From positions 1 to 50,601 of the forward strand of contig JASBUF010000068.1 of assembly GCA_030148085.1 (NCBI GenBank): a stretch of DNA of 50,601 nt, written 5' to 3'. Shown here in pieces: positions 36,508 to 41,945 of the stretch. Source of the stretch: Methylophaga sp. (GTDB taxonomy: Bacteria > Pseudomonadota > Gammaproteobacteria > Nitrosococcales > Methylophagaceae). Within the stretch, counting starts at the first letter, position 1. The number at the start of each line of letters is the position of its first letter. Below the pieces are notes generated by a model. It was not told the DNA's origin and ran no database searches. It saw only the letters and a list, made by a program, of their open reading frames with translations. A program made the translations under genes and the position numbers.

Positions 36508-37290
36508 TTATTCATCTCCAAACATCAACGCAGTCAGCACAAAGTCCAGCCCGAGGATAGCAAACGCTGAGTGCACAACCGTGCGCGTTGTTGCTCGTCC
36601 GACGCCTTCCGATGTCGGCATGGCATCATGCCCTTCAAACAAAGCGATCCAGGTTACAACAAACCCGAACACCACACTTTTGATGACACCATTCATGATG
36701 TCATCGTAAAAATCCGTTTTTGCCTGCATCTGTGACCAGAATGCACCATCATCGACACCCAGCAGGCCATGACCGACAAGAAATGCGCCGACAATACCAA
36801 CCGCACTGAAAATCGCAGCCAGCAACGGCATGGAAATAATCCCTGCCAGAAAACGCGGCGCGATAATACGTCTGATGGGGTCAACCGCCATCATTTCCAT
36901 ACCTGACAACTGCTCGGTACTCTTCATCAGACCAACTTCAGCGGTTAAGGCGGAACCGGCTCGACCGGCAAATAGCAAGGCACTGACCACCGGCCCCAAT
37001 TCACGTACCAGAGACAGGGATACAAGCACACCCAGCGACTCTTCGGCACCAAAGTCAACCAGCGTATTATAACCCTGTAGGCCTAAAACCATGCCGACAA
37101 ACAAGCCGGACACCAGAATAATCAGTACAGACAGCACACCGACCGAGAACAACTGCTGCATCACCAGCGAAAAACGCAGGAATAGACTGGGAACACCAGC
37201 CATCATCTGCATCAGGAACAAATGCCCCCGACCCAGTCGTTCAAAAGTACCGAGGCCCCAGCGCCCCAGGCCACGAATCCAGTTAATCAT
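36508..37290 (-). CDS. mlaE: Phospholipid ABC transporter permease MlaE
   Basis: The 260-residue integral membrane permease shows MlaE family sequence: [80 protein letters not shown] and a C-terminal [12 protein letters not shown]. It forms the membrane core of the MlaFEDB complex. The start codon overlaps the mlaF stop (ATGA). Confidence 0.96.
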
Positions 37291-38090
37291 GCATTTTCCT
37301 CAGGCTGGAGTAAGTCATCGGCATAGTCAGGTCCGGCAAAGTGGAATGGAACTGGTCCATCCGGCAACCCTTGTATGAACTGCTGAACCCACTCTGAACT
37401 CGACTGTTTCAACTGCTCTGGCGAGCCTTGCTCAATGATCTTGCCACCGGATAATAAGTAGATATGGTCTGCAATTTCGGAAGTCTCGCCGACATCATGA
37501 GACACCACGATACTGGTCAATCCCATGGCATCATTGATCCGATGAATCAGGTTGACCAGCGTACCCATCGAAATGGGATCCTGACCGGTAAATGGTTCAT
37601 CGTACATAATCATCATCGGTTCCAGCGCGACTGCACGTGCTAGTGCTACTCGACGTGCCATACCTCCAGAGAGTTCACTTGGCATCAGGTTACGGGCATT
37701 ACGTAGTCCCACTGCCTGCAGCTTCATCAGAACCAAGTCACGGATCAGTGATTCAGGCAGATCGGTGTGCTCTCTTAACGGAAAAGCGACGTTGTCGTAG
37801 ACATTAATGTCAGTTAGCAAAGCACCGCTCTGGAACAGCATGCCCATACGTTTACGCAGCTCGTATAAATCGGAACGTGACAGTTTGTGAACATCCTGCC
37901 CATCGACTTCAATCGTCCCTTTTTGAGGACGAAGCTGACCGCCGATGAGCTTAAGCAAGGTCGTCTTACCGGTACCACTCGGGCCCATAATGGCTGTCAC
38001 TTTACCGCGCTCGATATCAATATTGACACCATCAAAAATGGCACGGTTACCACGATAAAAGTGCAAGTCCCTGATCTTTATCAGTGGCAC
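37287..38090 (-). CDS. mlaF: Phospholipid ABC transporter ATPase MlaF
   Basis: The 267-residue ATPase has Walker [18 protein letters not shown]-loop [21 protein letters not shown], signature [14 protein letters not shown], Walker [13 protein letters not shown] and the switch His in [10 protein letters not shown]. It is the first gene of the mlaFEDCB-ibaG-murA-hisGDC run and is divergent from the MxaD-like gene across 223 bp. It powers lipid transfer that keeps phospholipid out of the outer leaflet; the direction of transport has been debated. Confidence 0.97.
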
Positions 38091-38141
38091 AGGTTTCTCC
38101 AGCTTCTATAAGTAAAGAATAAAGGCCGTTAATTTTGGTGA

Positions 38142-38206
38142 ATAAGCCGAAACAAGTCAAATCTGCGTATGGAAAAATAAGGGCTTATCGGCTAGAGTGT
38201 GCACTC
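38142..38206. repeat. Inverted repeats in the mlaF/mxaD-like divergent region
   Basis: Two dyads are visible. ATAAGCC (38142-38148) and GGCTTAT (38182-38188) are perfect 7-bp arms 33 nt apart. GAGTG-TG-CACTC (38195-38206) is a compact palindrome with a two-base centre. They lie between the two divergent starts and could be regulator sites. Confidence 0.35.
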
Positions 38207-38244
38207 CAGTTTCTGGTCAAAGGGAATAATTCACATTGGCATCT

Positions 38245-38278
38245 GTTCAGATTCCGTTCAGACTCGCTGTGCTAATGT
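38245..38278 (+). promoter_or_regulatory. Tandem GTTCAGA repeats and -10 box before the MxaD-like gene
   Basis: GTTCAGA occurs at 38245-38251 and 38256-38262, an exact direct repeat with an 11-bp period. Ten bases downstream is a -10-like TAATGT (38273-38278), and no good -35 is present, because the repeat occupies that position. This resembles activator sites of OmpR/PhoB-type response regulators. A ribosome site GGAGAG precedes the ATG at 38314. Confidence 0.5.
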
Positions 38279-38313
38279 CCCTTACGCAATTCTAAAAAAA
38301 TCGGAGAGATACA

Positions 38314-38877
38314 ATGAAGAAGTTGTTACAGTTCTTTGCTCTGGCTTTCATGGTCATCCCAATGCTGGCCAGCGCCCATGGCCCGACCCGTCAACAAGTC
38401 AAAGAAAGCATTATCATCAATGCTGCACCTGAAAAAGTCTGGGAAGTTGTTAGCGACTTCGCTGGCCTGCATAACTGGCACCCAGCTGTTGCCAGCACCG
38501 AAATGCAAGGCGACAAAACTCGTATTCTTACCCTGAAAGCCGATGGTAACCCAACCATTACTGAAGACCTCGAAAAACTCGACAACGAAACCATGACAAT
38601 GATTTACAAAATCACTGACATGAGTGTCGTTAAAACTATCACGTTCAATAGTAAAGACACCCCTTACTACACGCTGCCAGTCAATAACTACAAAGCGTGG
38701 TTGACTGTTAAAGCCAAAGACGGTGGTTCAGAAGTGACCTGGAAAGCGAAATTCTACCGTTCATTCCTGGATAACCCACCAGTACCAGAAGGTCAGGCTG
38801 ACGCTGATGCTGTTGCAGCTATTGAAGGTGTTGCGACCGCTGGTCTAAACAACCTGAAAGCGATTCTGGAAAAATAA
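38314..38877 (+). CDS. MxaD-like periplasmic SRPBCC (START-like) protein
   Basis: The 187-residue protein has a signal peptide (MKKLLQFFALAFMVIPMLASA) and then an SRPBCC fold: VKESIIINAAPEKVWEVVSDFAGLHNWHPAVASTE, LEKLDNETMTMIYKI, VNNYKAWLTVK and EVTWKAKFYRSF. The HGPTRQQVKESI start and the WHPAV segment are like MxaD, a periplasmic protein encoded with methanol dehydrogenase in methylotrophs and reported to help electron transfer from that enzyme. No dehydrogenase genes are in this window, so a role in alcohol oxidation is inference. The stop overlaps the next start (TAATG). Confidence 0.75.
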   Translation: MKKLLQFFALAFMVIPMLASAHGPTRQQVKESIIINAAPEKVWEVVSDFAGLHNWHPAVASTEMQGDKTRILTLKADGNPTITEDLEKLDNETMTMIYKITDMSVVKTITFNSKDTPYYTLPVNNYKAWLTVKAKDGGSEVTWKAKFYRSFLDNPPVPEGQADADAVAAIEGVATAGLNNLKAILEK

Positions 38878-39872
38878 TGTTTTCCAGTTTGCTTCAGCAA
38901 CCGACAAAGGCGACCCTATCAAGGGTCGCCTTTTTGCTTTTTATACCCCTGACTCTGAGCGCCTGCTTTGATGATGGTAAGCACTATGCCCTAATCACCA
39001 ATCAACTGGCAGACAACGTCAGTGTGATCGATATCCGTCTGGGCAAAGTGATCAAGCAAATTGCTGTCGGCGACAGTCCCGCCGGTATCACCATCAGTAA
39101 AGACAAACGACAGGCTTTTGTCAGCAATCCGGATGGTCAAACGGTTTCGGTCATCGACCTCAGTACTTTGGCTGAAATCAGACAAATTCCAGTTGGAGCT
39201 GGCCCGGTTGGCATTATCACTGACCAACAAGGCAAGCATCTCTACGTCGCAGATTGGTTTGATAACCATATTCAGGTTATTGATCCTGAAACAGGCACGT
39301 TGCTGAATACCATTCCCGTTGGTAAGTCACCAGCCGGCATGGTCTTGGACGAACAGCAGCAGCGACTTTATGTCGCTAATCGTGATGATAATGCTGTGGC
39401 ATTTATCGATCTGAAAACACAACAAGTGGTGCGAAGTGTAAGCTCTGGCAAAGCCCCGTTTGGCTTGGCTCTGACACCCGATGGTAAGCGCCTGTACAGC
39501 GTCAATGTGCAAAGCAGCAATGTCACTGTGATTGACACGGAAACGGCTGACGTCGTCACTACCATACCCGTCGGCGAATGGCCCTATTGCGCCGTTGTCA
39601 GCCCTGATGGCAATAAACTGTATGTGACCAATCAGGATGAGAGCACCGTCTCTGTTATCGATGTGGCCAGCAATAAAGTCCTGAACACCATTGATGTTGA
39701 AGATACACCGGAAGGCATTGATATCAGTGCCGATGGCAAGCTGATTTATGTCGCCAACTGGGGTAACGGTACAGTGTCGGTCATCGACGCTCACACTGAA
39801 CAGTCAATCAACACTATCGATACCGCCAAGGGCAGCCGCGCTTTTGGTGATTTCATAACCGAAATTGACTGA
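38877..39872 (+). CDS. YVTN-family beta-propeller lipoprotein
   Basis: The 331-residue protein starts at the ATG overlapping the previous stop by 1 nt. It begins with a signal peptide ending in a lipobox LSAC (Cys about 30). About seven repeats of roughly 42 residues follow, with the pattern VSVIDxxxxxVxxxIPVGxxPxGI...LYVAN, a seven-bladed beta-propeller. Such proteins are common beside PQQ-dependent dehydrogenases and their accessory genes; the exact function is unknown. The signal-peptide codons contain a complete intrinsic terminator (38906-38942). A later start would lose the positively charged n-region, so the upstream ATG is needed. It overlaps rsmJ by 8 nt. Confidence 0.85.
   Translation: MFSSLLQQPTKATLSRVAFLLFIPLTLSACFDDGKHYALITNQLADNVSVIDIRLGKVIKQIAVGDSPAGITISKDKRQAFVSNPDGQTVSVIDLSTLAEIRQIPVGAGPVGIITDQQGKHLYVADWFDNHIQVIDPETGTLLNTIPVGKSPAGMVLDEQQQRLYVANRDDNAVAFIDLKTQQVVRSVSSGKAPFGLALTPDGKRLYSVNVQSSNVTVIDTETADVVTTIPVGEWPYCAVVSPDGNKLYVTNQDESTVSVIDVASNKVLNTIDVEDTPEGIDISADGKLIYVANWGNGTVSVIDAHTEQSINTIDTAKGSRAFGDFITEID
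38906..38942 (+). terminator. Intrinsic terminator embedded in signal-peptide codons
   Basis: Perfect 11-bp arms AAAGGCGACCC (38906-38916) and GGGTCGCCTTT (38923-38933) enclose a 6-nt loop, and a U-rich tract TTTTTGCTTTTT follows. It lies 29 nt after the stop of the MxaD-like gene, where a terminator belongs. It is also in-frame coding sequence of the next ORF (K-A-T-L-S-R-V-A-F-L-L-F). Confidence 0.88.
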
Positions 39873-40617
39873 CTTCGTCGACTCCATCGCGGCTTTGGAT
39901 GAGCAGTCTGCTTTTGATGCAGAGCAGCTGGCCAGCCAACTCACTCTCACCCTGCAACCGGCAGATGAGAATCTGAATCAGCTGTGGCTGAGCGGGCATG
40001 GATTGGCGCTGAACATGCCCTCGTTGGGCAAGCCGTTTTATATCGACTTCAACGGTGGCAAGTATGATCATCGGCGTAAATTTGGTGGCGGCCGTGGTCA
40101 ACCTCTGGCTAAAGCGGTGGGGCTAAAGCAGGGTCAGAACCCTAGCGTGATTGATGCAACGGCTGGTTTTGCCCGGGATGCCTTTGTCCTCGCCAGTCTG
40201 GGCTGTAGCGTCACGATGATAGAACAAAATGCGATTATGGCTGCTCTACTGGCTGATGCCCTATCACGTGCCACCCAGAATGCAGATACTGCAGATATCG
40301 GCGTTCGCATGCAAATCCATCACAGCAATGCTATCCAATTCCTGACCGAGAACTACATTACTGCCGATGTCATATACATGGACCCGATGTACCCGACGAG
40401 AGAAAAGTCAGCGTTGGTCAAAAAGGATATGCAGCTGTTACATCAATTGGCTGGAGCCGATACGGATAGTGCCGAATTACTGGCTCTTGCAAGGCAAAAG
40501 GCTGGAAAACGGGTGGTCGTCAAACGACCGAAAGGTGCCGAATTCGTGGGCGAGCAGAAACCATCTGCCAGCATTCAAAGCAAAAACACCCGCTTTGATA
40601 TCTACCCGACGATCTGA
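39865..40617 (+). CDS. rsmJ: 16S rRNA (guanine1516-N2)-methyltransferase RsmJ
   Basis: The 250-residue SAM methyltransferase shows the RsmJ signature: YIDFNGGKYDHRRKFGGGRGQPLAKAVGLK, the SAM motif VIDATAGFARDAFVLASLG, and the catalytic region YMDPMYPTREKSALVKKDMQLL, then KRVVVKRPKGAEF. It modifies G1516 in helix 45 of 16S rRNA. The apparent start is TTG, overlapping the end of the beta-propeller gene by 8 nt. It converges with rarA, with 2 nt between stops. Confidence 0.93.
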   Translation: MTDFVDSIAALDEQSAFDAEQLASQLTLTLQPADENLNQLWLSGHGLALNMPSLGKPFYIDFNGGKYDHRRKFGGGRGQPLAKAVGLKQGQNPSVIDATAGFARDAFVLASLGCSVTMIEQNAIMAALLADALSRATQNADTADIGVRMQIHHSNAIQFLTENYITADVIYMDPMYPTREKSALVKKDMQLLHQLAGADTDSAELLALARQKAGKRVVVKRPKGAEFVGEQKPSASIQSKNTRFDIYPTI

Positions 40618-40619
40618 AC

Positions 40620-41945
40620 TCAGCCTTTATACTGTCTATCCAACTCTTTAAGGCGAGCTAACTTCTCAGCAATTTTAATTTCCAGGCCACGGTTCACTGG
40701 CTCGTAATAGCTGCGATCACGCATTGAGTCCGGAAAATACTGTTCACCTGCCGCATAAGCGTCCGGCTCATCATGGGCATAGCGGTACTCTTTGCCATAG
40801 CCGAGTTCTTTCATCAGCTTGGTCGGTGCGTTTCTTAGATGAATCGGTACCTCGGCACTACCATGGGCCTTGGCATCATTCATCGCGGCCTTATAGGCCA
40901 CGTAGACCGCATTACTTTTCGGTGCACAGGCCAGATAAACCACCGCCTGAGCAATAGCCAGTTCCCCTTCCGGGCTGCCCAGCTTGTCAAAGGTCTCCCA
41001 GGCATCAAGTGCAATTCGCAAGGCACGCGGATCGGCATTACCAATATCTTCTGCGGCCATACGCACGATTCGGCGCATTAAGTAAACCGGATCACAACCA
41101 CCATCGATCATCCGGCACATCCAGTACAAGGCGGCATCAGGGGCTGAGCCGCGCACACATTTATGCAGGGCAGAAATCTGGTCGTAAAAAGCTTCTCCGC
41201 CCTTATCAAAGCGGCGCAAGGTACCGGACAGGACTTCAGCCAGATCCTGCTCATCAACCTGTGTTTGCCCTTTGCTATCAGCCAAATCAATGGCAATTTC
41301 GAGCAGATTTAACACCCGACGCCCATCACCATCGGCCGTTTGCGCCAGTTGATCACGCAGCGGCTCAGGCATGGCAATGCCTCTGTCCGCGAGCCCCAAC
41401 TCACTGTCTGCCATTGCTCTGTCAATAATCAAACGTAAATCTTTGGCTTCCAGTGATTTCAACACATAGACACGAGCCCGTGATAACAGCGCGTTATTGA
41501 GTTCAAACGAGGGGTTTTCTGTTGTGGCACCAATAAAGGTAAAGGTACCGTCTTCAACATAAGGCAGAAAGGCATCCTGCTGCGACTTATTAAAGCGATG
41601 CACCTCATCGACGAACAGCATGGTGCGACGCCCCCGCTCTTTCTGCAATTGTTGTGCTCTCGCGACGGCCGCACGTACCTCTTTGACCCCGGCCGGTACG
41701 GCGGAAATAGTGATAAATTCCGCATCACAATAACCGGCGATGAGCTTGGCCAGCGTGGTTTTACCCGTGCCGGGGGGGCCCCAGAAAATCATCGAATGCG
41801 GATGACCTGAAGCAATCGCCTGACGCAGAGGTTTACCGGCCCCCAGCAAGTGCGTCTGCCCGATATACTGATCCAGTGTTTTGGGACGCATACGATCGGC
41901 CAACGGTCGGCTGGCCAGATCGTCTACCTGATCAAATAAACTCAC
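40620..41945 (-). CDS. rarA: Replication-associated recombination protein A
   Basis: The 441-residue AAA+ ATPase of the MgsA/WRNIP1 family acts at stalled replication forks. It has [21 protein letters not shown], Walker [18 protein letters not shown], Walker [17 protein letters not shown], sensor 1 GATTENPSF and the C-terminal [13 protein letters not shown] and [11 protein letters not shown]. The start is GTG and overlaps the lolA stop by 4 nt (GTGA). The ftsK-lolA-rarA order matches E. coli, but serS is not next to it; rsmJ converges instead. Confidence 0.96.

Follow-up and report, generated by a model that had tools for sequence, protein, structure and literature searches.

A conserved terminator-like hairpin inside the signal-peptide codons of a beta-propeller lipoprotein gene in Methylophaga and its family

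Internal intrinsic terminators set the stoichiometry of ABC importer operons in Clostridia, where they are intergenic, follow the gene of a highly expressed exported protein and allow part of the transcription to continue into the genes after it (PMC9045158). In E. coli, ribosomes near a terminator block it, and Li et al. (PMC4824070) give 27 nt as the stop-to-terminator threshold for such interference. The same study describes an artificial construct, W48, in which a gene stop, a gap and an AUG precede a terminator placed 30 bp into the second ORF, and in which translation of that ORF cut termination by just ~10%. The pyrBI attenuator, to which PMC4824070 also refers, has its terminator in translated codons that are open to ribosome interference; these codons belong to a leader peptide gene, with pause sites and UTP dependence. 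Premature termination near gene starts is also represented by E. coli 3' ends in 5' UTRs and ORFs, for example at ispU, whose terminator lies in the 5' UTR and for which the available text (PMC7815308) describes no coding overlap kept by compensating change. A terminator conserved inside signal-peptide codons was not found in a literature search judged mainly on titles and abstract openings and covering few subscription journals.

The locus described here lies in a 50,601-nt stretch of DNA from Methylophaga sp. (contig JASBUF010000068.1 of assembly GCA_030148085.1), which was analysed as a whole and is called the window below. The arrangement that we propose for it is like that of the Clostridia importer operons, except that the terminator-like element lies inside the codons of the next gene, where protein and RNA are mutually constrained. 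Its geometry is nearly that of W48, although here it is natural, and it shares with pyrBI the placement of a terminator in translated codons, although here these belong to the structural gene itself. The features to which the text refers are as follows.

37287 to 38090, minus strand: mlaF-like ABC ATPase gene, divergent neighbour 5' of the MxaD-like gene
38314 to 38877, plus strand: MxaD-like gene, 187 aa, Pfam PF10604 Polyketide_cyc2, ending in TAA at 38875-38877
38877 to 39872, plus strand: YVTN/YncE-type beta-propeller lipoprotein gene, 331 aa, start ATG at 38877-38879
38906 to 38933, plus strand: terminator-like hairpin of 12 pairs (38906-38917 with 38922-38933), inside lipoprotein codons 10-19
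38931 to 38942, plus strand: U-rich tract TTTTTGCTTTTT, 10 T of 12, coding F-L-L-F
39865 to 40617, plus strand: rsmJ, SAM_MT PF04445; best NCBIfam match RsmJ, scoring below the model cut-off

The label "MxaD-like" is taken from an earlier note on this DNA, the Pfam match being the one listed. The MxaD-like, lipoprotein and rsmJ genes are co-directional on the plus strand and consecutive with small overlaps. In particular, the lipoprotein ATG and the MxaD-like stop have one A in common (TAATG), and the 5' end of rsmJ, whose TTG start was assigned mechanically, overlaps the end of the lipoprotein gene (39865-39872); with this overlap and start, rsmJ may be translationally coupled to the lipoprotein gene and share its dependence on read-through. 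The lipobox L-S-A-C occupies residues 27-30 of the lipoprotein (Cys codon 38964-38966). MxaD-like orthologues are present in all 30 of the genomes whose junctions were compared, and rsmJ lies downstream of the lipoprotein gene in 30 of 30 loci (the match in L027 is cut by the locus end). The MxaD-like/lipoprotein junction has zero intergenic space, yet a strong terminator-like element is present. A promoter scan listed no plus-strand site between 37611 and 41682; as this leaves the region upstream of the MxaD-like gene blank too, the scan is weak evidence.

A stable G+C-rich hairpin and a U-rich tract directly behind its stem, the two components of an intrinsic terminator, both occur at this junction. 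Seven of the 12 pairs are G-C, the loop is 4 nt (ATCA), and the energy is -20.7 kcal/mol; the fold of 38860-38960 has a z-score of -5.92, and 0 of 200 shuffles were equally stable. The stem is separated from the MxaD-like stop codon by 28 nt and, read in the lipoprotein frame, encodes T-K-A-T-L-S-R-V-A-F, 5' of the lipobox. The earlier note had placed a terminator inside these signal-peptide codons, which is borne out in make-up, position and coding overlap; its count of 11 bp and 6 loop nucleotides describes this hairpin with the closing T-A pair left unpaired.

In the window genome, a second hairpin of 8 bp (38866 to 38887, plus strand) holds the lipoprotein ATG in its loop and could tie lipoprotein translation to ribosomes finishing the MxaD-like gene. 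It is absent from the consensus fold of 25 junctions and was dropped as a conserved element. An Rfam search of 37800-40700 with E up to 1 gave a sole match, the sub-threshold CsrC on the opposite strand over the terminator-like hairpin (16.7 bits where the cut-off is 61, E 0.042), which we take as chance. A repeat or uptake-sequence origin was also rejected, as the stem pattern is found once in the window's genome; a looser but still strict pattern matches in 8 of 34 genomes, each time solely at the MxaD-like/lipoprotein junction.

To place the element among similar ones, terminator-like sites were counted in the window and in 300 kb of genome G022 (282 genes). According to a rough codon-based gene caller, a gene on the same strand starts no more than 100 nt away from 1 of the 6 window sites and from 2 of the 37 in G022, the latter being the MxaD-like/lipoprotein locus and a prmB-like gene. 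Seventeen of the 36 other sites in the G022 stretch sit 7-34 nt after a stop, and the window hairpin ties as 9th-10th strongest among the 43 sites of the two regions together. The hairpin-bearing gene at the other start-proximal site in G022, which we presume to be prmB (L097; L106-L114), has the hairpin in its early codons (L097:10864-10886; G022 1830864-1830886, minus strand). The gene immediately upstream overlaps it and, judged by eye, ends like LeuC. The encoded residues are S-R-F-x-x-A-G-L-F-F/Y. Compared by eye, this stem is kept in 9 of the 20 loci compared, out of 30 retrieved, as well as in G022, with the U tract interrupted in most of the nine; it is absent in G006, G008, G016, G017 and G020, and 3 loci gave no match to the motif. 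Two of three outgroup loci (G038 and G035) have a shorter related hairpin.

Across Methylophaga and its family, a hairpin with a T-rich tail stands at all 31 junctions examined (30 genomes plus G021). These cover 24 of 24 searched members of the genus, counting the window's own genome, and, from the rest of the family, 7 of 11 members; the remaining four (G024, G026, G028 and G033) match neither the MxaD-like nor the lipoprotein protein. Loss of the stem in close relatives, the outcome that the earlier note had set against its own proposal, occurs at none of the 31. Hairpin-plus-T scores are 30.4-42.0 at these junctions, whereas the 381 control windows from the same loci average 18.5 (sd 3.2) and peak at 32.9, and 0 of 381 reach 30.4 together with at least 5 T. 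Since the hairpin finder always returns its best hairpin, it was run not only on these control windows but also on 18 paralogous junctions and the distant G047. None of the 18 combines a comparable hairpin with a T-rich tail, so this gene order does not by itself bring the terminator with it; nor was a comparable terminator found in G047. Instead, the paralogous junctions and G047 carry strong hairpins with 0-4 T or, in five paralogues, T-rich tails behind weak hairpins (scores 15.5-19.8). At L072-L074, L077, L079, L087 and L088, the paralogous MxaD-like/propeller pair has strong hairpins in signal-peptide codons with 0-2 T behind.

The U tract has 5-10 T per 12-nt window at the 31 junctions, the weakest being that of G008 with 5 T. 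The finder counted no mismatch in 27 of 30 junctions and one each in G005, G008 and G025, and the stem of G018 is weaker (-12.6). In 29 of 31 cases the stem lies within the open lipoprotein frame behind an in-frame start (27 ATG, ATG in G021 and GTG in G025), the two others being G009 and G001, whose contig is cut off. G025, the longest end branch in the tree, differs in stem sequence and register, and its hairpin (with one mismatch) and U tract still lie in the open frame behind the GTG. Two loci have a disturbed lipoprotein gene that may reflect an assembly error or a real change: in G009 (L055 after position 2061) the frame opened by the TAATG start is not continuous with the propeller frame, and in G020 (C19:17798-18750) two separate fragments match the propeller.

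The encoded amino acids alone do not account for the strength of the stem. For each of 27 correctly framed species (that is, without G009, G025 and G001, which is misframed because its contig ends early), only 0-9 out of 400 synonymous recodings gave an equally good fold. For the first stem alanine, 29 of 29 genomes use GCG, the least frequent of the alanine codons in these genes (171 of 1147, a count that takes in the stem codons). Behind the stem alanines, 26 of 29 genomes have TTT TTT and the window has TTT TTG, while phenylalanine usage in these genes is 311 TTT and 161 TTC.

Pairing is also retained through sequence change. Among 24 distinct stems, 95.5% of cells pair and both sides have changed at 6 of 11 pairs, and sliding the partner by 1-3 columns lowers the paired cells to 29-65%. 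Against 500 shuffles, which ignore relatedness, double-change cells are clearly in excess (25 against a shuffle mean of 7.2, reached by 0 of 500), pairs with changes on both sides are weakly so (14 of 500 reach the count), and further pair types are no more frequent (186 of 500). Simulation on a tree of 28 tips, built from the rest of the two proteins and with rates fitted on a coarse grid, takes relatedness into account: pairs 7-10 are formed in 112 of 112 cells, which was matched in 1 of 1500 runs, and five pairs are formed in 137 of 140 cells, matched in 5 of 1500. A sign test of independent pairs found no single pair significant, with too few events for it. The motif rows of the pairing and tree analyses are without G009 and G025, where the motif is lacking, and the tree counts also without G020 and its split lipoprotein gene. 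Pairs 7-10 are standard in all 28 tree rows and in all 24 distinct rows.

These changes reach the protein. Motif residues 3 and 7 (n=29) occur as T-V in 13 genomes, A-V in 6, A-A in 6, I-I in 2, V-I in 1 and V-A in 1, and every base pair behind these combinations is Watson-Crick or G-U. Where codon 4 starts with T (7 cases), its partner is lysine AAG in six, and in the seventh the T pairs with the G of an arginine codon; where it starts with C (22 cases), the partner is arginine, once tryptophan, and never lysine. The alignment of relatives that the earlier note called for has compensating changes in the stem and a frame that stays open, with the residues changing along, and we ascribe the covariation of the residues to the need of the RNA to pair. 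Directly observed at this junction are the hairpin and the U tract, their position, the open frame, their conservation, and the covariation of base pairs and of residues.

These observations bear on what the element could be other than a terminator in coding sequence. One may argue that selection acts on the signal-peptide residues alone and that the hairpin simply follows from a peptide whose code is palindromic, and K-A-x-L-x-R-x-A-F-F is, in our judgement, plausible as a signal peptide; this is hardly credible, however, given that the stem is lost on synonymous recoding, that residues 3 and 7 change jointly as base pairing demands (n=29) and that pairs 7-10 are always standard. The terminator would be ordinary and intergenic if the lipoprotein started beyond the stem, for which the window has an in-frame TTG at 38934, 15 of 29 genomes have an in-frame ATG, GTG or TTG past the loop and no more than 45 nt after the stem, and G009 has its first in-frame ATG within the hairpin loop. 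Such a start is very improbable all the same, as 14 of 29 genomes, G009 included, are without any, 29 of 31 have an in-frame start ahead of the stem, and the charged n-region would be removed. A somewhat better but still unlikely explanation is that the hairpin works on mRNA stability or on translation pausing, for example by slowing ribosomes at membrane targeting, and does not terminate. Several paralogous genes have low-T hairpins in their signal-peptide codons, so such hairpins need not terminate, but the conserved U tract, with TTT TTT in nearly all genomes, and a spacing and strength that match ordinary terminator-like sites argue for termination.

The most serious alternative is the switch proposed in the earlier note, in which prompt passage of ribosomes from the stop to the ATG blocks the hairpin and lets the lipoprotein and rsmJ track MxaD-like translation, while slow or idle translation terminates. 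In 28 of 30 junctions, the ATG begins at most 10 nt away from where the stop begins (G001 is counted because it is identical to G020 in this stretch), the terminator is inside the ORF in nearly all cases rather than ahead of or behind its start, and ribosomes do block nearby terminators in E. coli (PMC4824070). The stretch between stop and stem measures 22-32 nt in 29 of 30 junctions (60 in G025), which by comparison with E. coli would be near the limit of the reach of a stop-codon ribosome, and at the 14 of 30 junctions with 22-26 nt (the finder counts outer A-U pairs), just below the 27-nt threshold, such a ribosome may interfere in part. A candidate start from which ribosomes could enter the terminator also exists: an in-frame ATG lies 18-33 nt 5' of the stem in all 27 junctions having one there (G001, being misframed, G009 and G025 are outside this count). 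This same distance, however, speaks against the idea that a ribosome at the ATG covers the stem, which lies outside the footprint of an initiating ribosome; judged by the footprint given in PMC4824070, the ribosome would have to translate some codons before reaching the stem, and in the comparable construct of Li et al. the terminator 30 bp after the AUG lost just ~10% of its efficiency. Moreover, the start varies in position, at +2, +3, +9 or +10 relative to the first base of the stop, so that the TAATG overlap holds for the window but not as a general feature. The consensus fold of 25 of the 30 junctions (without G001, G006, G007, G023 and G025) contains the terminator hairpin and no other conserved helix, and thus no mutually exclusive antiterminator of the amino-acid operon type. 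We therefore regard the switch as possible but doubtful, and we are equally tentative about its extension, a translation-gated attenuator present throughout the family, with the structural gene serving as its own leader and RNA pairing dictating the allowed signal-peptide residues. If that extension were true, read-through would need a ribosome already in the signal-peptide codons, and T would go with V, A with A and I with I, with lysine only opposite a codon 4 that starts with T and arginine, or in one case tryptophan, elsewhere.

The simpler of the two live readings, and the one that we consider probable from the sequence comparisons, is that the element is a conserved terminator of the MxaD-like gene, located inside the signal-peptide codons of the next gene, that sets a high upstream/low downstream ratio. 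Most polymerases would stop at the U tract and yield a short MxaD-like mRNA, and the minority reading through would make a lipoprotein-rsmJ mRNA of low expression, so that the element would fix this ratio within one transcription unit. Any mRNA with the lipoprotein start includes the hairpin, and full lipoprotein synthesis would therefore require read-through. Ribosomes moving from the stop into the lipoprotein start could raise read-through, probably modestly, and by default we would expect strong termination, a modest leak and modest help from ribosomes; termination in vivo, the extent of read-through and the influence of ribosomes are all inferred. A terminator within an ORF can yield non-stop mRNA, a cost that counts against the terminator reading.

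The junction is a natural case of one DNA stretch under two codes, that of a terminator and that of a signal peptide, and sites of this kind would escape terminator predictors that omit coding sequence. How ribosome and polymerase compete at a terminator early in an ORF could be measured here in a natural setting.
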